From: Fibrobacter sp. UWH4
GTDB lineage: Bacteria > Fibrobacterota > Fibrobacteria > Fibrobacterales > Fibrobacteraceae
Direction: 5' to 3'
DNA length: 64,000 nt
Assembly (NCBI RefSeq): GCF_900142475.1
Contig: NZ_FRAY01000009.1
Location: 1-64,000, forward strand
Position 1 is the stretch's first letter, and every line of letters starts with the position of its first letter. A model generated the notes under the pieces. That model was not told where the DNA came from. It did not search any database and saw only the letters and a list, made by a program, of their open reading frames with translations. The position numbers were made by a program, and so were the translations under genes. Of the stretch, positions 7,033 to 60,050 are shown piece by piece.

Positions 7033-8100
7033 ATGGCATACAATATTCAAGATCTTCTTTCTGAAATGGTCCAGCGTGGCGCCTCTGACTTGCACATTAC
7101 TGCAGGTGCGCCTCCCCTTATTCGTCTTTCCGGCAAGCTCACCCCCATTGGCGAGGACAAGCTCAAACCGGACGAAACTATGCGCATGACCTATAGCCTG
7201 ATGAACGAAGGCCAGAAGAAGACTTTCGAACAGCAGAAGGAATGTGATTTTTCTTTCGGTATTGCGAACCTCGCGCGTTTCCGTGCGAACGCTTATCTGC
7301 AGCGTGGTTGCGTGGCGCTTGCGCTCCGTATCATTCCGCTTGAAATCAAGACCTTTAAGGATCTCGGCCTCCCGAAGATTATGGCCGAGTTCACGACCCG
7401 TCCTTCCGGCCTCGTGCTGGTGACGGGGGCTACGGGTTCGGGTAAGTCGACGACCTTGGCCGCCATGATTGACAAAATCAACAAGGAACGTCACGACCAC
7501 ATTCTGACGGTGGAAGATCCGATCGAATTCTTGCACAAACACCAGGGTTGCATGATCAACCAGCGCGAAGTCGGTAGCGATACCAACAGTTTTGCCCAGG
7601 CTCTTAAGATGGCGCTCCGTCAGGACCCTGACGTGGTGCTTATCGGCGAAATGCGTGACCTTGAAACAATCCGTGCGGCTTTGACGATTGCTGAAACCGG
7701 TCACTTGGCTTTTGCGACGCTCCATACCAACTCTTGTGTGCAGACCATCAACCGTGTGGTCGACGCGTTCCCGAAGGGCGAACAGCAGACTGTGCGTACG
7801 CAGCTCTCGTTCGTGCTGCAGGGCGTGATTTGCCAGACGCTTATGCCGCGCATTGGCGGTGGCCGTGTGATGGCTTACGAGGTGATGAACGTGACTCCGG
7901 GTATTCGTGCGTTGATTCGCGACGACAAGGTGCACCAGATTGAATCGATGATTGAAATCGGTCAGAAGTTCGGCATGAACACGATGAACATGTGTCTCTG
8001 CGACCTGGTGAAGAACCACAAGGTCGACCGTTTCGACGCCCTTGCCCGTTCTCCGAGTCCGGACCAGTTGGAACAGTTGTTTGTGAAGGAAGGCGTTTAA
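7033..8100 (+). CDS. pilT: Type IV pilus retraction ATPase PilT
   Basis: Cytoplasmic hexameric ATPase that depolymerises type IV pili and powers twitching, adhesion changes and DNA uptake. Walker A GATGSGKST (about residues 131-139), the Asp box EDPIEF, Walker B LIGEMRD and the His box TGHLAFATLHTN are all intact; length is 355. The N-terminus (DLLSEMVQRGASDLHIT) is the PilT signature. pilC follows after three bases. The pilin gene in this window is at 52786, about 44 kb away. Confidence 0.96.
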   Translation: MAYNIQDLLSEMVQRGASDLHITAGAPPLIRLSGKLTPIGEDKLKPDETMRMTYSLMNEGQKKTFEQQKECDFSFGIANLARFRANAYLQRGCVALALRIIPLEIKTFKDLGLPKIMAEFTTRPSGLVLVTGATGSGKSTTLAAMIDKINKERHDHILTVEDPIEFLHKHQGCMINQREVGSDTNSFAQALKMALRQDPDVVLIGEMRDLETIRAALTIAETGHLAFATLHTNSCVQTINRVVDAFPKGEQQTVRTQLSFVLQGVICQTLMPRIGGGRVMAYEVMNVTPGIRALIRDDKVHQIESMIEIGQKFGMNTMNMCLCDLVKNHKVDRFDALARSPSPDQLEQLFVKEGV

Positions 8101-8103
8101 CCT

Positions 8104-9306
8104 ATGGCAGAATTCCTATACAAGGCCACCAACAGCCAGGGCAACAATTTCGAAGGCTCGATTGAGGCGAAGGACAAGGCTGAAGCCGAAGCGCTGTTGA
8201 TGCGCCGCCGTTTGATTATTGTCAGCCTCAAGAAAAAGCCGACTGAAATCAAGATTAAGATCGGTTCGGGTATCAAGCCCGCCGAAATTGCACGCTTTAC
8301 CCGTATGTTCTCTTCGATGAGCTCGGCGGGTCTTCCGATGTTGCAGTGCTTGAACATTCTGGAGAACCAGTGCGAAAACCCGGAACTCAAGAATGTGGTC
8401 CACAAGATCACGCAGTCCATTAACGGCGGTTCGTCGTTGGCGGACGCCTTGGCGCAGCACCCGAAAGTCTTCAGCAACCTGTATACGAACATGGTGGCGG
8501 CTGGTGAAGCGGGTGGTATCTTGGACGGTATCTTGGCGCGTCTTGCAGAAACCCTTGAAAATAACGAACGCCTGAAGCGTAAAGTGAAAAAGGCTTTGAC
8601 CTACCCGGTGATGCTTGTTATCGTGGGTATTTTGGTGGTGATTGCCCTTATGACCTTCGTTGTGCCGACATTCGCTGAACAGTTCGCAGCCCTTGATGCA
8701 GAACTTCCGGCACCGACACAGGCGGTGATGGGCATTTCTGACTTTATTCGTGATAACGGTGCGTTCCTGTTTATCGGCGCGATTCTCTTGATTGTCGGCT
8801 TTAAGGTGGCCATGCGCGTGCCTGCGGCAAAGTTTGCCTGGGACGGCTTTATGCTGAAAGTGCCTAAACTGGGGGACCTGCAGATCAAGTCGACTACCGC
8901 TAGTTTTGCGAGAACGCTTGGAACTTTGCTGAATGCCGGTGTGTCCATCATGGATTCCTTGAAGGTGGTGGCCTCGACCGTTACGAACAAAGTAGTTGAA
9001 AAGGGCATTAACAAGATTGCAATCGGTATCGCGGGCGGTAAGAGTATCGCTGACCCGATGCAGGATACGGGACTTTTCCCGCCTATGGTGATCCAGATGA
9101 CAGGCGTGGGTGAAAAGACCGGTAACCTGGGCGGTATGCTTTTGAAACTGGCCGACTTCTATGACGAAGAAGTGGACGCCGCCGTGGACGCCGTGGTGGG
9201 CATGATGGAACCGTTAATCATCGTGTTCCTCGGCGGTGCTGTCGGTGGCCTCCTCATTGCAATGTATATGCCTATGTTCTCGATGGGCGACGCCGTTAAG
9301 GGATAA
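8104..9306 (+). CDS. pilC: Type IV pilus inner-membrane platform protein PilC
   Basis: GspF/PilC-family polytopic protein forming the inner-membrane platform of the pilus machine, contacted by PilB and PilT. Two T2SSF cytoplasmic domains are visible (about residues 65-190 and 265-390), each followed by a membrane helix; the final VFLGGAVGGLLIAMYMPMF segment is the family's C-terminal helix. Length is 400, as expected. It directly follows pilT. Confidence 0.95.
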   Translation: MAEFLYKATNSQGNNFEGSIEAKDKAEAEALLMRRRLIIVSLKKKPTEIKIKIGSGIKPAEIARFTRMFSSMSSAGLPMLQCLNILENQCENPELKNVVHKITQSINGGSSLADALAQHPKVFSNLYTNMVAAGEAGGILDGILARLAETLENNERLKRKVKKALTYPVMLVIVGILVVIALMTFVVPTFAEQFAALDAELPAPTQAVMGISDFIRDNGAFLFIGAILLIVGFKVAMRVPAAKFAWDGFMLKVPKLGDLQIKSTTASFARTLGTLLNAGVSIMDSLKVVASTVTNKVVEKGINKIAIGIAGGKSIADPMQDTGLFPPMVIQMTGVGEKTGNLGGMLLKLADFYDEEVDAAVDAVVGMMEPLIIVFLGGAVGGLLIAMYMPMFSMGDAVKG

Positions 9307-50051: not shown

Positions 50052-50115
50052 CTTTTTTCAAAAAAAATGAATTTGGGTATTGACTTTTTGACAAAATAGT
50101 GTATATTTGTGCAGT

Positions 50116-51123
50116 ATGAAAAGCGAGCTGGAAAATACATTTCTGCTATATCACGATAAAGACGGCAAAACTGACGTTTCGGTGCGTTTTGCCGATGAAG
50201 ATGTATGGGTGACTCAGGTTCAGCTTGCCGAACTGTATGAGACCACTCAGCAAAATATAAGCCTGCACATCGACAACATATACAAGGACGAGGAACTGCC
50301 CAAGGAGGCAACTCACAAGGAATTCTTGTTAGTTCAACAAGAAGGAAAACGGCAGGTTCATCGAAAGATTGCTCATTACAATCTCGATGTCATCATCGCC
50401 ATCGGTTACCGTGTCCAGTCCCCTGTAGCCACAAGATTCAGGCGGTGGGCCACGGCAAGGCTGCATGAATTCATTCAGAAGGGTTTTTCCCTTGACGATG
50501 AAAGGCTGAAAAACGGCCGAAACCGTTATTTCAAGGAGCTTTTGCAGCGAATCCGCGATATTCGCTCGTCTGAACGCAATTTCTACCAGCAGGTCACGGA
50601 TATCTATGCGACATCTATTGACTACGATCCCCGCAAAAAAATTACGAAGGATTTCTTTGCTACCGTTCAGAACAAGCTGCATTATGCCGTCCACGAGCAT
50701 ACGGCGGCAGAGCTTATCTACGAGCGTGTTGATAGCGAGAAACCGTTCGTCGGCATGACAAATTTCAAGGGGAACTACATCACGGAAGACGATGTGAAAA
50801 TCGCCAAGAACTACCTATCGGAAAAGGAACTCCAGCGTTTGAACCTGATGGTGTCGCAGTTTCTTGATTTCGCCGAATTGCAGGCCCTTGACGAAAAGCC
50901 GATGAAAATGCAGGACTGGGTTGCGGCTCTGGACAGTCAGATTGTCATGAGCCAGCGGAAAATCCTGGAAGGTGAGGGGAAGATAAGCCACGATGAGGCC
51001 ATGGAGAAGGCGGAGCGAGAATACAGCCTGTTCCGTCAAAAGGAATTGGCCAACCTGAAAAGCGATTTCGATCTATTCTTGGAAGAGACAAAGAAACTGT
51101 CCAACGATAAGTCTGCGAAATAA
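50116..51123 (+). CDS. RhuM-family protein
   Basis: 335-residue protein of the virulence RhuM (PF13310) family, found in pathogenicity and mobile islands; biochemical role unknown. The conserved N-terminal DNA-binding-like region (VWVTQVQLAELYETTQQNISLHIDNIYKDEEL), YNLDVIIAIGYRVQSPVATRFRRWAT and the helical C-terminal half with DYDPRKKITKDFFATVQNKLHYAVHEHTAAELI are clear. The ATG at 50116 is chosen over a TTG at 50107. Upstream TTGACA/TATATT (50089-50107) may be its promoter. It is flanked by the 49-bp repeats. Confidence 0.9.
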   Translation: MKSELENTFLLYHDKDGKTDVSVRFADEDVWVTQVQLAELYETTQQNISLHIDNIYKDEELPKEATHKEFLLVQQEGKRQVHRKIAHYNLDVIIAIGYRVQSPVATRFRRWATARLHEFIQKGFSLDDERLKNGRNRYFKELLQRIRDIRSSERNFYQQVTDIYATSIDYDPRKKITKDFFATVQNKLHYAVHEHTAAELIYERVDSEKPFVGMTNFKGNYITEDDVKIAKNYLSEKELQRLNLMVSQFLDFAELQALDEKPMKMQDWVAALDSQIVMSQRKILEGEGKISHDEAMEKAEREYSLFRQKELANLKSDFDLFLEETKKLSNDKSAK

Positions 51124-51172
51124 GCCACGGCTTCGTGCCGTGAGAGTCTGCCCCTGCGCAGCAGTGAATGCC
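51124..51172 (+). repeat. 49-bp direct repeat, copy 2
   Basis: Starts immediately after the RhuM stop codon. Differs from copy 1 at six positions. Confidence 0.85.
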
Positions 51173-51247
51173 ACGGGTATTGCGCAGTTTTCAAACTTTT
51201 TTGTCTTTTTCTTTGACCGTTAGGCTCTTTTTGTTATATTTCCTTAT

Positions 51248-51460
51248 ATGGATAAGCAAATCTCATGGACCGTTGCTGCAATCAGTGAATTCGCGAAAGC
51301 CAAGGCACTTTCCGTAAAGCAGGTTTTTAACTATCTAAGCCTGTTTAAAGGTCTTGATTTTTTGCAAGAGCATTATGGGGCCGAGCACTTGCTTTCTTTT
51401 GACGATGCCGTAGATGATTTGACCGCTATTTGCCAGAGGAATGGAGGCCAAATACGATGA
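51248..51460 (+). CDS. DUF3791-like small protein
   Basis: A 70-residue protein (SWTVAAISEFAKAKALSVKQVFNYLSLFKGLDFLQEHYGAEHLLSFDDAVDDL) with the pattern of DUF3791: a helical segment, a GxDFLxEHY-type middle and an acidic end. It is the first of three genes joined by ATGA overlaps and is usually found beside DUF3990, suggesting a neutralising or co-acting partner. Function unproven. Confidence 0.65.
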   Translation: MDKQISWTVAAISEFAKAKALSVKQVFNYLSLFKGLDFLQEHYGAEHLLSFDDAVDDLTAICQRNGGQIR

Positions 51461-51846
51461 TTTTGTACCATGGTTCAAATTGCGAGGAAATGGCACGTAA
51501 AGTTGCCGACCGATTTGGCGGCGGCCCCATTGTGAACGCGTTTGAGTTCGACGATTCGAATTTGTCGACATTGAATGTCAAAAAGTTTGAACAGCCGAAC
51601 CGTGAATGGGCAGAATTTGTGATGGCAAACAGAAGTAGAGGTCAGGAACATCCTGCAGATAATTTTGATTTGATTATTGGTCCCGTGGCTAACGACGACA
51701 TCGCGACTTTGTTCAGAACGTTCGCAATAAATGTCATTACAATTGGTGAATTAGTTCAAGGGCTGAAGTCTCGAAAATTGAACAACCAATACGCTTTCAG
51801 ATCTGAGAAAGCAATCGCCTTTTTGCAAAAGAGGCCGAGCGTATGA
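51457..51846 (+). CDS. DUF3990-like protein with internal deletion
   Basis: 129 residues. It begins MILYHGSN as DUF3990 (ART-like fold) proteins do, and the C-terminal half matches well: FGGGPIVNAFEFDDSNLSTLNVKKFEQPNREWAEFVMANRS, then DLIIGPVANDD and QYAFRSEKAIAFLQ. The segment that normally sits between YHGSN and the ALxxGGG region (the DFGxGFYxT strand and following helix) is missing, about 20-25 residues. That region probably carries part of the active site, so this copy may be inactive. Confidence 0.65.
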   Translation: MILYHGSNCEEMARKVADRFGGGPIVNAFEFDDSNLSTLNVKKFEQPNREWAEFVMANRSRGQEHPADNFDLIIGPVANDDIATLFRTFAINVITIGELVQGLKSRKLNNQYAFRSEKAIAFLQKRPSV

Positions 51847-52129: not shown

Positions 52130-52360
52130 AGGAAGAAACAATCTATATTGAAAATTGTGCCGCATCTTACGTGAAGTTGGCTGAAGTCTACTTCGTGGAA
52201 AATAATGCCATGGGCGCTTGGAAGGACATTGGTTACAATGCTCCGAACGGATTTAGTGGATCTAGTTCTCAGTCCACGAACTTCACTTATGGTGCGTCTA
52301 CTTATCAGGCTACCACCAGAGGATCCGCAACATGGGGTGCATACACAGTGCGGGTGGGTC
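52130..52360 (+). pseudogene. Degenerate pilin fragment
   Basis: The frame ASYVKLAEVYFVENNAMGAWKDIGYNAPNGFSGSSSQSTNFTYG is a diverged copy of the pilA segment GTYVKLQQAFVSETG...IGYSAPG...TTNFTY. There is no prepilin leader or start, and homology fades after about 52350. It lies on the same strand about 600 bp upstream of pilA. The rest of the 709-bp gap (52360-52670) shows no gene. Confidence 0.7.
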
Positions 52361-52678
52361 CCTTTTTGCTGTTTTTGGGTGCCGCCACCCCGATCCTTGG
52401 TATCAAATCTTACGGTTCTGTTACGAAAATGTGTGCTAATTGTTGCAAAATTTGCGTAATTATTCCAAGTTGGAATACTTTTTTTGAAAAAAGTTCCCCA
52501 TTCGCCTGAAATTTTTGTATATATACACCATCGAAATCTGTCTCGAAATGTGGCGAATTTCAACCAAAAACGGCAAATCTCGGCGCCGTCTGTTCAGAAC
52601 AAAGTAATTTTTTGTGACGAAAACGTAACGAAACCGAGAAAAAAGTTTGACAAAAATGCAAAAAATTTGACAAACCTA

Positions 52679-52707
52679 TTGCTTTTGGGAAAAAATGATT
52701 GTATATT
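52679..52707 (+). promoter_or_regulatory. pilA promoter
   Basis: TTGCTT (52679-52684), a 17-base spacer and TATATT (52702-52707) fit a sigma70-type promoter, giving a leader of about 75 nt. The ribosome-binding site AAGGAG is at about 52773-52778. No GG-N10-GC sigma54 element is seen. Confidence 0.6.
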
Positions 52708-52785: not shown

Positions 52786-53268
52786 ATGAAAAAGCAAGGT
52801 TTTACCCTTATCGAATTGATGGTCGTGATCGTGATCATGGGCATCCTGGCCGCCGTCGCAGTACCGAAACTGTTCGGCATGATCGCTAAGTCCAAGGCTT
52901 CCGAAGTCGGCCCCGCCGCTGGAACCTACGTGAAGTTGCAGCAGGCTTTCGTGTCTGAAACGGGCACCGATTACGGTTCTTTTAAGCTGATTGGTTACAG
53001 CGCCCCGGGTACAAATAGCCAGACGACTAATTTTACATACACTGATGAAGCTGGGGCAGGCACCCATGCACTTCCGCAAACTGCTGAAGATGCTTGGAAA
53101 GCAACTAGCCGAGTTCAGTTGAACGATTGTACTACTGGTGGTACATGGACTGTCACTATTGCAAAGGCTGCCGGTGGCAACGCTGCTGATGCGGCAGTAT
53201 TTGACGCAAGCGTGAACGGCAATGGTTGCGAAGAACTGACCCCGTCTTTTAACAAGATCGGCCATTAA
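52786..53268 (+). CDS. pilA: Type IV major pilin (prepilin)
   Basis: Prepilin of 160 residues. The leader is MKKQG, cleaved before FTLIELMVVIVIMGILAAVAVPKLFGMI, with Glu at +5 of the mature protein. The alpha1 helix runs to about residue 55. A disulfide-bounded D-region lies between Cys in RVQLNDC (about residue 109) and NGNGCEELTPSF (about residue 148). From codon 47 (GTYVKLQQAFVSETG) the gene is homologous to the cassette at 55787-56147; the two share 38 identical bases at 52924-52961 and nearly identical last codons. PilT and PilC are encoded at 7033-9306. Likely expressed strongly (good RBS, own terminator). Confidence 0.95.
   Translation: MKKQGFTLIELMVVIVIMGILAAVAVPKLFGMIAKSKASEVGPAAGTYVKLQQAFVSETGTDYGSFKLIGYSAPGTNSQTTNFTYTDEAGAGTHALPQTAEDAWKATSRVQLNDCTTGGTWTVTIAKAAGGNAADAAVFDASVNGNGCEELTPSFNKIGH
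52924..52961 (+). repeat. 38-bp inverted repeat, pilA copy
   Basis: Exact reverse complement of 56106-56143. It begins ACCTACGTGAAG and ends GTGTCTGAAAC, in codons 47-59 of pilA, at the alpha1/variable-region boundary. Confidence 0.95.
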
Positions 53269-53291: not shown

Positions 53292-53318
53292 AGCTCCCCG
53301 ATTCGGGGAGCTTTTTTA
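53292..53318 (+). terminator. Rho-independent terminator of pilA
   Basis: AGCTCCCCG/CGGGGAGCT stem, three-base loop, six-T tail, 24 bp after the pilA stop and 11 bp before the next ATG. Confidence 0.9.
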
Positions 53319-53328
53319 TATTTAAAAC

Positions 53329-54972
53329 ATGCTCTTTCGGCGTCCGACAGCTTGTGCGCTTGGAATAAACGGGGTGTTGCTCATCTTGTTCATTTTGTTT
53401 GGTGTTGTACGTTACGGATCGTTGGACGATTACTTTATGGCGGCGACACTGACAGGAGTCTACGGTTCTGAGTATGACCCGCATCTAGTTTTTATAAATG
53501 TTGCTTTAGGATATCTTTTAAAACCGTTCTACATAATCTTCCCGGCAGTAGGGTGGTTTTATATATTCGAATTGCTATCTGTTTTTGCAGCATTTTCGAT
53601 ATTTTCCTTTTTTATAATCCGTCGATTGGGACCGCGCTGGGGAATCCCCTTCGCTTTTTTAATCTCTTCATCATCGATTGATTTCTATGCAGGCATAAGT
53701 TTTACCCAATGCGCCGCCTTGCTTGTCGCAAGCGGTGGTCTTTTGTTCTTCTTCGGTTGCAGGGAAAATCGAAGCATATTTTTATATGCAGGGATTGCAC
53801 TAGTTGTTTTGGGCGCAATGACCCGTTGGCAAATGTTTTTATTGGGCATTCCTTTTATTTTATCTCCATTTCTATTTGAACGAGAACCATTTTCGTTCTT
53901 TCAGAGAAAAAATGTGGTAACGCTGCTATTGTGCGTTGCGGCAATACTCTCTTTGAAATATTTCGATGAGCAGAGCTACGCGGATAACGATTATAAATAT
54001 TACAGGGAATACCAATGGAAAAGGTCCTTTTTTGGGGATGGGGCTCACTATGATGTTGACGGCGTCTATGACGAACTCGAAGAGCGTGGTATGTCGGCTC
54101 ATGATTTTCAACTTTTAAGAGGTTGGAGTTTCTATGATACAGATGTCTTTAGTTTAGACAGCTTGGATACTATTGTAAAGGTGGCTAACCACAGCGCATA
54201 TCCCATAAACTGGCGTCGCATGCCCGCGGCGACCTTCCTTGCTATTTCCAATGCATTTGCGAAGAATCTGGCTTGGAATTGGTTCTTTGTCTGCATACTT
54301 CTGTTGTTGTTCTCGGACAAGCGAAAACGTATGTATCCTTGGTATTCGCTAACCCTTTGTGTTGGGGCGTACTTTTATTTGTTGTCGCTTAACCGTTTGG
54401 CAAACCACGTAGAAATGGGAATGTGGGTGTATGCGTTTGCCATGGGAGTCACTTTACTAAAGGGCGACCCGCCGAAATCTACTAAGACGACCTGTGCAAT
54501 TTCCTTATTTGCAGTTGCCGTTCTATGCCTAAATCTGTTTTGCCTGCCCAAGGTGGAATGCGAGGGTTCCTTGGTGAAGACACCATCTGTTCCGCAAGAC
54601 TGGAAAGATTTCCTGGCGTATGCGGACGCACATCCCGAGAATGCATACCTGCTATCTTTTGCTCGATATAAGGAATTGGGAATGTTTAAAGATCCCGCTT
54701 ACAAGGCTGCACAGCCTGGTAGCTGGCAGAATATTTTTACCCTTGGTTACTGGAACATCAACCATCCGGCAATGAAAAGGGAACTCGCAAAAAGAGGGGT
54801 CGCAAATCCCCTGCGAGACATTGTAAAAGACAATGTCTATCTGATAGAGACGGAAAATATCCCTGAATACGTTCTGTTTTACCAAGAGCATTATCATAAA
54901 AATTTGAAAGTGGATACAGTCAAGGCGTTTGGCAGCCTAATGGTCTTAAAGTATCGAGAGGTCATTAAATGA
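53329..54972 (+). CDS. GT-C-like polytopic membrane protein (pair A, first gene)
   Basis: 547 residues with about ten membrane helices and a C-terminal soluble domain from about residue 415. After the first helix it has the acidic pair D33-D34 in YGSLDDYFMAATLTG, the position of the catalytic Asp motif in GT-C glycosyltransferases. The protein at 58329-60050 is a paralogue with the same DDYFMAA motif at the same residue. Role suggested: lipid-sugar dependent transferase acting on pilin or surface glycans (inference). It lies just past the pilA terminator and overlaps the next gene by ATGA. Confidence 0.6.
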   Translation: MLFRRPTACALGINGVLLILFILFGVVRYGSLDDYFMAATLTGVYGSEYDPHLVFINVALGYLLKPFYIIFPAVGWFYIFELLSVFAAFSIFSFFIIRRLGPRWGIPFAFLISSSSIDFYAGISFTQCAALLVASGGLLFFFGCRENRSIFLYAGIALVVLGAMTRWQMFLLGIPFILSPFLFEREPFSFFQRKNVVTLLLCVAAILSLKYFDEQSYADNDYKYYREYQWKRSFFGDGAHYDVDGVYDELEERGMSAHDFQLLRGWSFYDTDVFSLDSLDTIVKVANHSAYPINWRRMPAATFLAISNAFAKNLAWNWFFVCILLLLFSDKRKRMYPWYSLTLCVGAYFYLLSLNRLANHVEMGMWVYAFAMGVTLLKGDPPKSTKTTCAISLFAVAVLCLNLFCLPKVECEGSLVKTPSVPQDWKDFLAYADAHPENAYLLSFARYKELGMFKDPAYKAAQPGSWQNIFTLGYWNINHPAMKRELAKRGVANPLRDIVKDNVYLIETENIPEYVLFYQEHYHKNLKVDTVKAFGSLMVLKYREVIK

Positions 54973-55718
54973 AAATGTCCCAAAAGATAAATATAGCCCT
55001 GTTCTCCAGCTTTGTGGTTACAGCCGTTTCGGGGGCGTTTATTTGGGGTTCTGATTTTTTGTCGAATCAGAATGTGCCGTGGCACATGCAGTCGGGTATA
55101 GACGAAGATTCTTTATCTACGTATGGGGAGAATGACTATCGGCTTTTGGATAAGCGTCCTGTGATCGCCCAGATAAATAGAAGCCAGAAAAAACAGGTTT
55201 TGATTCTCGTAGATTCATGGGGAGTTCCTCATGATAAATCAAAGCTAGAGAAAGAATTCTCGATATTCAATGATATTCCTCATGATTTCGCCATTCACCA
55301 CAGGATGGCAAACAGAACAAAACATGCAGAACGGGTGGAATACCGCAGAGACTCCTCTGACGCCCTGTTCCTGTTTGGAGGAGATTCTCTGGAATTTGGC
55401 AGATCTGAATATATGCAGGAAATCGGTTATTCTAGGCGGTTGTTTTTCCAGAAATGTAGCGACAGCCTTATGTTGGCTAAGTTGGATTCTGTTATGAGTG
55501 ATGGTGCGTTTTCTACCATAGCGTGGACGACTCAGGGTTCAAGATACAGTTCTGAAGATTCTCTAATGTCGACCCTTAAAGGGATTCGCAACTTGGCAAA
55601 AGAACATTCCGACGTTCGATTTGTAGTGCAAGGAACGCATCGTCCGATTCTTTGCTCCTCGGAGTACAAGCGTACGTTTTACGAACACTGGGTCCCGACG
55701 GTTGTATTAAATCCTTAA
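54969..55718 (+). CDS. Short sulfatase/phosphoethanolamine-transferase-like protein (pair A, second gene)
   Basis: 249 residues: one membrane helix (about residues 8-27), then an alkaline-phosphatase-superfamily-like domain. The parallel gene at 57076-58332 has ILVESWG, FLFGGDSLE, IAWTTTDTKF and IIQGDHNPIL; here these read ILVDSWG, FLFGGDSLE, IAWTTQGSRY and VVQGTHRPIL. The metal-ligand Asp of GDH is Thr here, and the four extra membrane helices of the paralogue are absent, so this copy may be inactive or have another role. Translation is coupled to the GT-C-like gene. Confidence 0.55.
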   Translation: MKMSQKINIALFSSFVVTAVSGAFIWGSDFLSNQNVPWHMQSGIDEDSLSTYGENDYRLLDKRPVIAQINRSQKKQVLILVDSWGVPHDKSKLEKEFSIFNDIPHDFAIHHRMANRTKHAERVEYRRDSSDALFLFGGDSLEFGRSEYMQEIGYSRRLFFQKCSDSLMLAKLDSVMSDGAFSTIAWTTQGSRYSSEDSLMSTLKGIRNLAKEHSDVRFVVQGTHRPILCSSEYKRTFYEHWVPTVVLNP

Positions 55719-55731
55719 GATAAGGTATATA

Positions 55732-55768
55732 CAAAAAAAGGTTCCCTTGTGCAGGGAACCTTTTTTTT
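55732..55768. terminator. Bidirectional terminator between pair A and the silent pilin cassette
   Basis: AGGTTCCC/GGGAACCT stem flanked by seven A and eight T, so it works on both strands. It separates the convergent ends at 55718 and 55787. Confidence 0.88.
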
Positions 55769-55786
55769 GTAAGGCGCTATGTGTGA

Positions 55787-56147
55787 TTACGACCCAATCT
55801 TGGAGAAGGACGGAGTCAGTTCTTCGCAACCGGAACCGGTCACAGATGCCGAGAATTCAACAGCGTCTGCAGCGGAGCCAGAGCTGGCCTTCATAACTTT
55901 AACATCCCAATGAGAGCCAGAACCGGATGCGCAATCATTCAACTTAACATTGGGTGTGGCGGTCCATGCAGCGGCTGCGGAGCCAGACAATGCTGCCGTG
56001 TTGTTGGTATAGGTACCCGGGTTGGTATAGGTAAAGTTTGTTGTGGCGCTATTCTTACCCGGAGCACTGTAGCCGATAATTGTGAAATTGCCATACTGAG
56101 AACCAGTTTCAGACACGAAAGCCTGCTGCAACTTCACGTAGGTACCT
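55787..56147 (-). pseudogene. Silent pilin cassette lacking leader and alpha1 helix
   Basis: Encodes the exposed part of a pilin: GTYVKLQQAFVSETGSQYGNF, IGYSAPG, TTNFTY, a different variable middle, then LNDC...SGCEELTPSFSKIGS and a stop. The prepilin leader, hydrophobic helix, promoter and RBS are absent. Its 5' boundary is four bases after the recombinase stop. The 5' 38 bases are identical to pilA and the last 45 are very similar, while the centre diverges. This is the layout of a donor for pilin variation (compare pilS cassettes or the Moraxella invertible pilin). Confidence 0.9.
56106..56143 (-). repeat. 38-bp inverted repeat, cassette copy
   Basis: Exact reverse complement of 52924-52961. 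The centres are 3182 bp apart in inverted orientation. Confidence 0.95.
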
Positions 56148-56150
56148 GCT

Positions 56151-56993
56151 TTATTTTAGCCTGTTGAACTTTCTCATTTCTTTGTCAAGGAATGTGTCAA
56201 CGAATTTTGCATAAATAAGAGTGGTCTCAACATTACGGTGCCCCAATAATTTACTTGTTGAAGGTAGTGATATTCCGAGCGTGATGCAGGTGGTTGCAAA
56301 GGTGTGCCTTGCCAGGTGGCAATGAATGTATTTGTGATAGCCGAGTTTTGGGGCCACCTTGCGGAGCGTCCTGTTGAAATGTGAATTCTCAACTACTTTA
56401 AAGACGGGGCCTTTTGTCAGTTTTTCGGGCAAGAGCAACCGCGCTTGGATTGGAATAGGAATGTATACCGGCTCTCCGGTTTTGTGAGTTTGTTTCCGTA
56501 TTTTCCAATCAAAAATTTCGGATGCATCGAGAGAAAGAAGGTCGCTGTATCGCAGACCGGTAAAGCAGCTAAACAGAAATACACCCATTACATTTTGTTC
56601 TGTTTCTGTAAGGAATTGCTTGTTGTCTAGGTAGTTTAGGTACAAGCGTTTAAGCTCGTTGATTGTAAGAAAATTTCGCCTTGAATAAACTCGGCCGACC
56701 TTTATATTTTCAAAAGGGTCTGTTTCGAACAGCTTGTCTGCAACCATTTTCCTTGTAAAAATTCTAAAAACAGACAAGGCCTTGGCCACAGTATTTGGCT
56801 TATCACCCTTTTGTTGCAAGAATGCTTTATAATTGCGAATAAAAGATTCATCGATGTCTTCGCAGTGGGCCTCTGGGTCAAAGTCCGTGACTTTCTTTAG
56901 GTTCCAATAATAGGTCCGCATTGTAGTGGGGGCCAAGTTTTCCTTGTAGTTTTCAAGGTTAAGGTATTTGAGGGCAGTGTCAAAGAATAGCAT
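56151..56993 (-). CDS. Tyrosine recombinase (phage-integrase family)
   Basis: Site-specific recombinase of 280 residues. A SAM-like N-terminal core-binding domain (about residues 1-100) precedes the catalytic domain with the full set: Arg in FTGLRYSDLL (about 151), Lys in HKTGEPVYIP (about 174), HLARH (about 226-230), His in LLGHRNVETT (about 253) and the nucleophile Tyr in LIYAKF (about 261). It is XerC/D- or Bacteroides-invertase-like in size. GGAG precedes the ATG. It ends four bases before the silent pilin cassette, which makes pilin inversion its probable job. Confidence 0.9.
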   Translation of the reverse strand: MLFFDTALKYLNLENYKENLAPTTMRTYYWNLKKVTDFDPEAHCEDIDESFIRNYKAFLQQKGDKPNTVAKALSVFRIFTRKMVADKLFETDPFENIKVGRVYSRRNFLTINELKRLYLNYLDNKQFLTETEQNVMGVFLFSCFTGLRYSDLLSLDASEIFDWKIRKQTHKTGEPVYIPIPIQARLLLPEKLTKGPVFKVVENSHFNRTLRKVAPKLGYHKYIHCHLARHTFATTCITLGISLPSTSKLLGHRNVETTLIYAKFVDTFLDKEMRKFNRLK

Positions 56994-57075: not shown

Positions 57076-58332
57076 TTAATTTAATATAATGTAAGGAACC
57101 CAGCGCTTGTAGAATTTGTTCTGAAATTCTGTCGGAGAAAGTATTGGATTGTGGTCGCCTTGGATTATGAACCGTGTTTTAGGGAATTTGTGCACGAGTC
57201 CAGCAATTTGCGCAAACGTGTTTTTTAGCTTGGTTGTGTATGTAGAATTGACGGAGTCCGCATTACTGTTATAAATGTCTGCGAATTCTTCCATTGGAAA
57301 TTTTGTGTCAGTAGTAGTCCATGCAATAAAGTGATTTTGTGTTGAATCGGTAAGAATGCTATCAATCTTAGAGACCATTGCCTGGTCGTTTAAACCATTG
57401 CCGTAGATGGATTCGCCAAAGCCAATGTTTTTGATGTATTTAAATCGGTAGTGCTCTAAGCTGTCTCCGCCGAACAAGAAGGTTGTTTGATAATCAAGCT
57501 CATTAAAAACTTTGGGTAAGAATAGCGTGTCTTTTTGCTTAGTGATTGAGTCGCGAGTGATAGCTTTGATTAAATCTTCGCGTTCTGCAGTTCGTGTGCG
57601 ACTGTACATGCGGTTATGTATACCTACTATGCTTGTGAAGCCTTTGAAGATTTCTAATTGCTTTTCGAATCGTTGAATGTTCAACGGAACGCCCCAACTT
57701 TCAACAAGAATTATTACGTTGTTGCGGGTTGTATCTACGAAATCTCGTGTGATAGTAACGGAATCGCTGACAGTATATTTTTGATGAAATTCTTTCGTGA
57801 TTTCACTGCGTTGCGCGGGTTTGGGAGTTGTACGTTCCAAATAGTCTATTGTCGGAAATTGAGCTAAGGGCTGTGCTGCATAGCGGTTATTGACCTCCAA
57901 ATGAAGTGCTAGCGCAATAAACAGAATGAAACAAATTGTATTGAATTTGAATGGCTTGAGTTGCCAGACCATTGCAATGGCGAGAGCGCATGTGATAAAT
58001 GGTATAATTCCATACCAATTAGCTTCCCAGTTTTTTATAGCGAGTAGATTCTGTAGGTCAAGCTTGGCCACAATAAAAAGCGTGATGATGGCTAAAGCTA
58101 ATAGAATTGCTGTTGCGAGGAATTTTACGAGAGTTTGCTTCGGCATTTGCAGAAAGCCTCGCAATGACGAGTTTGTTAGCTTGCTTTTAATGAATATAAT
58201 AAGCAACAGCAGTGCAAAATATTCATACCCGAACAATCCGCGGATAATGTCTTGCCCCTTCTCGAAAGTGAGTAAGAAAGGCACAATTGTTATAAGGGCG
58301 CTTGCAATTAGCGGATACAGGAGACGTTTCAT
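57076..58332 (-). CDS. Sulfatase/LtaS-like membrane protein (pair B, second gene)
   Basis: 418 residues: about five membrane helices (residues 5-160), then an alkaline-phosphatase-superfamily-like domain with NNVIILVESWG (about residue 204), FLFGGDSLEHYRF, IAWTTTDTKFP and FIIQGDHNPIL. This resembles phosphoethanolamine/phosphoglycerol transferases (EptA, LtaS), which modify surface glycans or lipids. Residues NSSLRGFLQ (about 54-62) are encoded by half of the genome's REP-like palindrome. Coupled to the preceding gene by ATGA. Full-length counterpart of the protein at 54969. Confidence 0.6.
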   Translation of the reverse strand: MKRLLYPLIASALITIVPFLLTFEKGQDIIRGLFGYEYFALLLLIIFIKSKLTNSSLRGFLQMPKQTLVKFLATAILLALAIITLFIVAKLDLQNLLAIKNWEANWYGIIPFITCALAIAMVWQLKPFKFNTICFILFIALALHLEVNNRYAAQPLAQFPTIDYLERTTPKPAQRSEITKEFHQKYTVSDSVTITRDFVDTTRNNVIILVESWGVPLNIQRFEKQLEIFKGFTSIVGIHNRMYSRTRTAEREDLIKAITRDSITKQKDTLFLPKVFNELDYQTTFLFGGDSLEHYRFKYIKNIGFGESIYGNGLNDQAMVSKIDSILTDSTQNHFIAWTTTDTKFPMEEFADIYNSNADSVNSTYTTKLKNTFAQIAGLVHKFPKTRFIIQGDHNPILSPTEFQNKFYKRWVPYIILN

Positions 58333-60050
58333 TGTTTGTTCTCCTGTGCATTGGCGATATTGACGAGTCTGTATTTATAGAAAGTCATTTCACCTATTTC
58401 TTTCAAGGTGTCCACGGCAACGCTGTCGTAGTAATGCCGTTGCAGAAAATCGACCAAGTGAGGCTCGTTCAATACGATTACGTTATCGTGAATCACGTCT
58501 TTCATTGGATTTTTTATGCCAAAGTCTGCTAAGGCCTCTGTAACCTCAGGTAAATAGGGTGTCCAGTATCCGAACGAGACTGTTCTGCAGTATTGCCCGA
58601 TGGGCTCTGCTAAGTAGGGCGGGTTGCGATGATGACTAAACCGCATAAAGGCGTTCATGCTAAGCAAAAACAGTTTGTCGGGTTGATTGTCGATGTAATC
58701 AAAAACTTGTCCGTAATCGGTAGAGTCTTCAATTGCTAGCGTTCTCATTCTGCCGCTGCTGGGGTCGCGAACCATTTCGCCGGAGGTTGCGTAAGCGTAT
58801 ATGTTGACAACAGCAATAATGGCAAGGATCGAATAGGTCAATTTACGAGGAATATTCAAGGATAATCTTCCGAAAAGTGGGATGGCTAGTATCGCCGCAT
58901 AAAGCCAAAACCCACTCTCTACGCGATAAACCAGCCGTCCAATAGAAAGTAGATGAGCCATTAGAGCGAGAACGATGGCGAGAGAAGTCCACAAATATAA
59001 AAATTTATTAGGATTGGTTATATATGCTATCAAACACAAAATAAACCATGTCCAAAAAAGAGGCGAATGAATGGAATGACTTAACGCGTTTAGTAAATTT
59101 CGGGGAATGAGTTGTGGTGGATTTGGGTCACGATATGCAGAAATGATATCTGTGTAACGTTTTAGGCTATCAACAGAAAAAACTTCGGTGTCGTAATGTA
59201 TCCATTCTTTGAGCATTTGGAAATCTTTTCCTGAAAGCCCAATTTCTTCTGCATCTTCATAAACTGCATTCTGATTAAAGTTCTCCTTATCACCTAGAGC
59301 CACACGGGGACCTTGAAATTTGACGAAGTCAGCATATTCGGGCGATTGGTAAATTTGTTGATCAAAATGGTGCATGGTGAATGCGCCCACGAACAGGATT
59401 GCTAATCCCACAATTACGCGCCATTTGGATTTCCAACAATGCTTGAAAATAAACAGCATCCCGAGGCAGAAGAACGGCATTCCCATCAAGAACGCCTGCC
59501 ACCGCATCACCGAGCCCCATAACATCAGAATTATGCTGAAAACGAAGGGAATATATTTCCTAACGTCATTGCGAGGAGCTTTGGCGACGAAGCAATCCAT
59601 TCTAGAGCATTGTATGACCCCGTACGCAAACAGCAACATCCCCGCCGCGCTCAGTATCGAGGCGCATTGCGTAAACTGCACAACCAGGTAGAAATCGCTG
59701 GCAAAGAGAGCAGTGAACAGCGTTGCGAGGATTGCTCCCCAGCGTTCCCCGCATCGCAGCAACAACACATATCCAATGACTGTAAACGAGAGAAAAACGG
59801 CGAACATCTCGCCGATGTAGTACCACCCGATTTTCGGAAAAAGATGGTATAGGGGCAAAAGGGCATAGCCGTAGATGGCGTTCACGAATATCAAGTGCGG
59901 GTTGTAGTCCGTACCCAGGGCTCCGGTGAGTCTTGCGGCCATGAAGTAGTCGTCAATCGCCCCGAACTTGAGGTCGCCAAAAACAAGGCATAATGCCAAG
60001 AAGAACAGGTTGATGGCTACGGAATAAGCTATGGCGCGTTTGATGGGCAT
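58329..60050 (-). CDS. GT-C-like polytopic membrane protein (pair B, first gene)
   Basis: 573 residues, about eleven membrane helices, paralogous over its whole length to 53329-54972: FGAIDDYFMAARLTG (D33-D34), YNPHLIFVN, QFTQCAS, MRWQAFLMG and a C-terminal domain ending FYKYRLVN. Residues about 151-163 (MDCFVAKAPRNDV) are the translation of a REP-like palindrome inserted in frame between two membrane segments; pair A lacks it. The ATG lies 26 bp from the divergent GT4 start. Function as for pair A, by inference. Confidence 0.6.
   Translation of the reverse strand: MPIKRAIAYSVAINLFFLALCLVFGDLKFGAIDDYFMAARLTGALGTDYNPHLIFVNAIYGYALLPLYHLFPKIGWYYIGEMFAVFLSFTVIGYVLLLRCGERWGAILATLFTALFASDFYLVVQFTQCASILSAAGMLLFAYGVIQCSRMDCFVAKAPRNDVRKYIPFVFSIILMLWGSVMRWQAFLMGMPFFCLGMLFIFKHCWKSKWRVIVGLAILFVGAFTMHHFDQQIYQSPEYADFVKFQGPRVALGDKENFNQNAVYEDAEEIGLSGKDFQMLKEWIHYDTEVFSVDSLKRYTDIISAYRDPNPPQLIPRNLLNALSHSIHSPLFWTWFILCLIAYITNPNKFLYLWTSLAIVLALMAHLLSIGRLVYRVESGFWLYAAILAIPLFGRLSLNIPRKLTYSILAIIAVVNIYAYATSGEMVRDPSSGRMRTLAIEDSTDYGQVFDYIDNQPDKLFLLSMNAFMRFSHHRNPPYLAEPIGQYCRTVSFGYWTPYLPEVTEALADFGIKNPMKDVIHDNVIVLNEPHLVDFLQRHYYDSVAVDTLKEIGEMTFYKYRLVNIANAQENKQ
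59563..59600. repeat. REP-like palindrome inside a coding sequence
   Basis: CGTCATTGCGAGGAGC...GAAGCAATCCA, the same family as 14697-14730 and 15041-15075. A half-copy lies at 58154-58171 within the neighbouring gene. Confidence 0.85.

Follow-up and report, generated by a model that had tools for sequence, protein, structure and literature searches.

A predicted shufflon-like inversion switch for a PilA-type pilin in Fibrobacter

The pilA locus of Fibrobacter sp. UWH4 very probably works as a shufflon-like switch in which DNA inversion alters a PilA-type pilin, judging from its sequence and from that of its relatives. In the arrangement we propose, a tyrosine recombinase would act at two copies of a short asymmetric site, one within pilA (in the N-terminal helix, codons 48-52) and the other, inverted, where a silent pilin head starts. 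Recombination would flip the 3.2-kb segment between both sites, swapping the whole pilin head while the promoter, the leader and the assembly helix are retained, and the old head would be parked beside the recombinase, its own terminator and cargo genes A and B moving along with it. The features of the locus are listed below by their position in the window, i.e., the whole 64,000-nt stretch of DNA analysed.

52159..52360 (about), plus strand: decayed third pilin head with a degenerate site, upstream of pilA (homology)
52667..52696, plus strand: candidate promoter of pilA, TTGACA-18-AAAAAT (consensus match only, 10/12)
52786-53268, plus strand: pilA gene (ORF)
52786..52926, plus strand: constant N-terminal part of pilA, codons 1-47, with prepilin leader and N-terminal helix (Pfam N_methyl PF07963)
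52927..52941, plus strand: proposed crossover site in pilA, 15-nt core TACGTGAAGTTGCAG (exact repeat 52924-52961)
52942..53268, plus strand: variable pilin head of pilA, currently expressed (ORF, alignment with silent head)
53292..53312, plus strand: terminator-like hairpin of the expressed head
53329..54972, plus strand: cargo gene A, 547-aa membrane protein, paralogue of the 573-aa protein with GT-C fold
54969..55718, plus strand: cargo gene B, 249-aa protein, paralogue of the 418-aa protein
55730..55771, no strand assigned: hairpin with T tract, silent-head terminator, reading on the minus strand (inverted repeat I9)
55787..56140, minus strand: silent pilin head, leaderless, 117 codons and stop (open frame 55787-56137)
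56126..56140, minus strand: proposed crossover site at the silent head, 15-nt core TACGTGAAGTTGCAG, inverted with respect to the pilA site (exact repeat 56106-56143)
56151..56993, minus strand: tyrosine recombinase, 280 aa (Pfam PF00589, catalytic residues)
57076..58332, minus strand: flanking gene B, 418 aa, paralogue of the 249-aa protein
58329..60050, minus strand: flanking gene A, 573 aa, predicted GT-C glycosyltransferase fold (AlphaFold model, structural matches)

Promoter-like matches of the type assigned to pilA occur in the region at chance level. The decayed third head retains 41% identity over 66 residues, and its crossover site is partly kept. Just 5' of it lie a RhuM-family gene (PF13310; PADLOC candidate PDC-S05) and a DUF3990 gene (50107-51846), and the other end of the window (7033-9306) contains type IV pilus machinery, i.e., genes for a PilT-like ATPase and a PilC-like membrane protein, named from their ORFs by eye.

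pilA and the silent head are identical over 38 nt (3 nt, the 15-nt core and another 20 nt), forming an inverted repeat for which the chance expectation in 64 kb of random sequence is about 3e-14. This exact match bears out the 38 identical bases that a first-pass annotation had placed at the 5' end of the silent cassette. Homology of the silent head to pilA begins at 56149, with one base between it and the recombinase stop codon (56151-56153), and the core begins 10 nt past this stop. The earlier proposal that a recombination site fixes the 5' boundary of the cassette is supported. Between the ends, the heads are divergent as previously described (56-64% nucleotide identity, with gaps). The last 15 codons had been called nearly identical, which is true of the protein, with 12 residues kept, but not of the DNA: 5 of these 12 codons differ synonymously, hence there is no DNA-level repeat at the 3' end. 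Past the stop codon, both sequences are unrelated. The two conserved ends are hence not equivalent, the 5' one being a DNA site and the 3' one reflecting protein constraint. Neither a prepilin leader nor the N-terminal helix was found in the silent head by family search or alignment; the structure prediction for PilA itself was poor (pLDDT 40). In silico inversion of the 3,214-nt segment between the cores yielded an intact 164-aa pilin bearing the silent head and left the recombinase frame intact.

The pair of cores is unique in the 3.7-Mb genome: a 20-nt version of the site, with one mismatch allowed, was found in exactly two places, and its reversed control pattern gave zero matches in the same search. 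Synonymous differences in Fibrobacter relatives told the two ends apart. Where two copies in a genome encode the same residue, the codons differed in 0-6% of pairs at the five core positions and in 35-66% at those next to the core, a strongly biased Glu codon (6%) being the exception. Near the C-terminus, the LTPxF block is conserved in the protein, yet its codons showed 35-60% synonymous differences, so that conservation of the DNA held at the 5' core and not at the 3' end. The core appears to be a DNA-level site, conserved beyond protein constraint. The site is asymmetric, with a core conserved at the DNA level and a variable left arm: in relatives, sequences left of the core are random or unrelated in silent copies, and correspond to the pilA N-terminus in expressed ones. 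There is no obvious pair of inverted recombinase arms in the core, and the sites showed no full 12-bp conserved right arm. The central bases of the core covary by genome and agree within most of them (G037 and one copy in G073 deviate), reading AAGTTG in most genomes, CATCTG in G010, CATATG in G073 and CATGAC in G015. In G151, which has a recombinase of only 53% identity, all three scanned copies read TACGTAAAG. Such agreement within genomes is what a recombinase with matching overlap would need.

We read loci from about 30 genomes, and a pattern recurred: pilA is near-constant at its N-terminus (84-100% identity, 100% in most cases), and silent heads start at the same codon, in both orientations. 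Relatives hold up to eight or nine pilin heads. For instance, the complete, single-contig genome G144 (L131, L140) has, at exact sites, one expressed head, seven intact silent ones and one broken by a stop right after the site, while in G139 about seven silent stretches accompany one expressed head. Of 18 arrays, 16 have at least one inverted partner. Direct orientation was found for 17 of 46 silent heads, including all those counted in G071 and G139, one of these arrays being incomplete and the other bearing variant sites outside the count.

An open frame of at least 88 codons follows 53 of the 55 silent sites, a length that random frames reach 15% of the time; the window's relic is among them by chance, leaving 52 real heads. 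For orthologous heads silent in both species, pS was 0.60-0.72 and pN 0.14-0.25, i.e., a pN/pS of about 0.2-0.4, which is a rough figure with dS near saturation. Silent heads are thus under purifying selection. Moreover, some heads that are silent in one species are expressed in another: for example, silent head 13014 of G001 is 84% identical to the expressed head of G057, 954 of G018 is 77% identical to that of G004, and 11169 of G058 is 68% identical to that of G018. Terminator-like hairpins follow 58 of 77 heads versus 9 of 385 shuffles; most heads have their own, so that each head represents a self-contained 3' end. The first-pass reading of the cassette as a silent alternative pilin head kept for variation is supported.

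The catalytic set of the recombinase (R148, K171, H226-x-x-R229, H252, and Y261) is invariant in 11 sequences. Only 19 residues follow Y261 in this 280-aa protein, with no extra Rci-like C-terminal domain. The enzyme resembles XerC/XerD models, below their curated cut-offs, and by curated cut-off it is not an integron integrase. Its best plasmid matches among those listed are mostly Bacteroidota integrases (~30% identity). Of 80 Fibrobacter genomes, 36 have a close orthologue, and three further genera of the family have one as well. At least two sites were present in 21 of the 36 genomes with the recombinase and in 0 of the 44 without it (P: 5.5e-10, a value that overstates independence: the species are related, and G072, one of the 21, counts only via a one-mismatch match elsewhere). 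In six genomes (G001, G005, G008, G042, G045, and G046) the recombinase gene and the array are on different contigs or widely separated, which suggests that it would act in trans there; the cassette abutting the recombinase gene, as first described, is hence a fact of the window and not a general rule. A distance between recombinase gene and pilin array was also noted for loci L137, L080, and L112. In G011 the gene is split across two contigs (G011:C19:77908-78405 and G011:C20:77532-77885), and a contig binned as a Bacteroidales MAG (L110:4-2904) carries a 79% identical recombinase with A and B genes, through either transfer or a binning error.

Assembly breaks in relatives bear on whether inversion takes place. 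In G042 (nine contigs), C4 stops within pilA, C7 (7,908 nt) has heads at both ends and another head opens C1. Neighbouring contigs share exactly 95 nt at each junction (C4-C7 and C7-C1), both overlaps starting at AACCTACG, the point from which the left contexts of the two places agree. A graph assembler would break at these points if both orientations had been sequenced, each head having more than one left context, as would follow from inversion in that culture: the evidence is strong but indirect, as it is read from contig ends, with the assembler and its k inferred. Contigs of G002 and G032 also end inside or just after the core, these being fragmented drafts in which strain mixture could also break contigs at that point. 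Three features point to reciprocal site-specific inversion: sites in inverted arrangement, a tyrosine recombinase, and the assembly breaks of a relative. We infer that this recombinase would catalyse it, and that inversion would occur in this strain.

A leaderless, promoterless copy with a variable middle, and with ends conserved at the protein level, could also serve RecA-type gene conversion as a donor to pilA, as in pilS/pilE of Neisseria, where leaderless silent pilin copies undergo RecA-dependent, one-way copying in tracts. The Fibrobacter locus is like pilS in using leaderless silent copies as a store of variation; unlike pilE/pilS, it shows no tracts, a single short site, and no DNA-level homology at both ends. 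Across 38 same-genome pairs of expressed and silent heads, the longest exact match outside the site was 17 nt (median 10), and this absence of long exact runs argues against conversion, since tract copying would leave longer ones. The left boundary is sharp at the core, the 3' end is unconserved as DNA, and the contig structure of G042 fits reciprocal inversion. We rejected gene conversion for lack of tracts and of a 3' DNA repeat, and consider it very unlikely. The earlier notion that both conserved ends betray the design of a donor is not supported, only the 5' end being a DNA-level site.

Alternatively, the array could be an integron-like store of recombinase-inserted heads that come and go through excision and insertion, inversion now being rare. 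Heads do differ widely among species, many silent ones are direct (17/46), and toxin-antitoxin genes lie among them as in superintegrons. Yet the recombinase falls short of the curated cut-off for integron integrases, inverted partners are the rule among arrays (16/18), and the contig ends of G042 fit inversion and not excision circles, leaving this scenario as improbable as conversion, or slightly more so. The least credible option is that a pilin duplication left the cassette as a dead fragment, beside an unrelated integrase remnant. It is in keeping with the decayed third fragment upstream of pilA, but intact heads are opened by 52 of 55 silent sites, silent heads are under purifying selection, the recombinase is intact with all its catalytic residues in the 11 sequences, and the pattern recurs genus-wide. 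We rejected this fossil reading, given the intact frames and the purifying selection, and deem it extremely improbable.

The proposed inversion switch would carry genes along with the heads. The AlphaFold model of the 573-aa flanking protein is of moderate confidence (pLDDT 64, pTM 0.62); in structural comparison, ranks 1-32 were all GT-C enzymes (Z 8.0 to 12.9), and below them came matches with Z 7.1 and lower, further down mostly unrelated chains. The matches include ArnT, PglB, OST, and PMT, and the protein is predicted to have a GT-C glycosyltransferase fold. Relatives of the B protein inside segments match the Sulfatase family PF00884, and cargo genes of the GT-C/sulfatase type usually share orientation with the head upstream of them. 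From folds and positions, we guess at a role of cargo genes A and B in pilin modification. Other cargo in relatives comprises HipA, AbiEii, DUF3990, and DUF4143 genes, familiar from toxin-antitoxin modules, which could stabilise segments. As in superintegron arrays, such genes (AbiEii, HipA, DUF4143 AAA, and DUF3990) were seen between pilin heads, at L072:9142-9864, L078:8067-9017, L078:12214-13467, L082:6584-7141, and L117:10613-11767.

Searches of the open-access literature revealed no account of pilin inversion in Fibrobacter, subscription journals being mostly outside this coverage. Piv of Moraxella is not a tyrosine recombinase and deals with two pilins only; unlike it, the Fibrobacter enzyme matches Phage_integrase PF00589 with a tyrosine recombinase motif, and the eight or nine heads of some Fibrobacteraceae exceed this pair. 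The two systems have inversion of pilin genes in common, proposed for Fibrobacter and, in Moraxella, a source of pilin phase variation (as cited in PMC5903667). A closer parallel is the Rci shufflon of plasmids R64 and TP114, in which PilV has a constant N-terminus and variable C-terminal segments, and the sfx sites a conserved core and a variable left arm (PMC11852207, PMC9045228). The Fibrobacter locus resembles it in joining a constant N-terminus to swappable C-terminal segments at a shared site, with a tyrosine recombinase and inverted sites of the same conserved-core, variable-left-arm type. Unlike the Rci shufflon, it is chromosomal, it targets a PilA-type pilin (presumably the main subunit) and not the minor tip pilin PilV, its segments carry cargo genes, and the conserved stretch right of the spacer is short. 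Its recombinase also lacks the additional C-terminal domain that Rci carries after the catalytic core (PMC11852207). The system would work like a shufflon, whether or not it belongs to the Rci family.

A wider reading, which we regard as a genuine possibility somewhat short of probable, is that of a family-wide chromosomal shufflon of Fibrobacteraceae that would change the main pilus subunit and pilin modification in one step, bringing linked glycosyltransferase- and sulfatase-fold genes into the pilA transcription unit or removing them from it, with an asymmetric-site design whose origin would be independent of Rci. The locus had been first interpreted in terms of antigenic variation; the store of variation stands, while the antigenic purpose is doubtful because the bacterium is a gut fibre degrader. 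Phage escape and substrate adhesion may be purposes on an equal footing. An active switch would explain the breaks at pilin loci in some Fibrobacter assemblies, and the recombinase and its short site could serve as a further inversion tool. Type IV pili and fibro-slime proteins have been proposed to hold Fibrobacter to cellulose (PMC4668043). If a recombinase does exchange the exposed pilin head, attachment, and possibly phage sensitivity, would vary within a clone.
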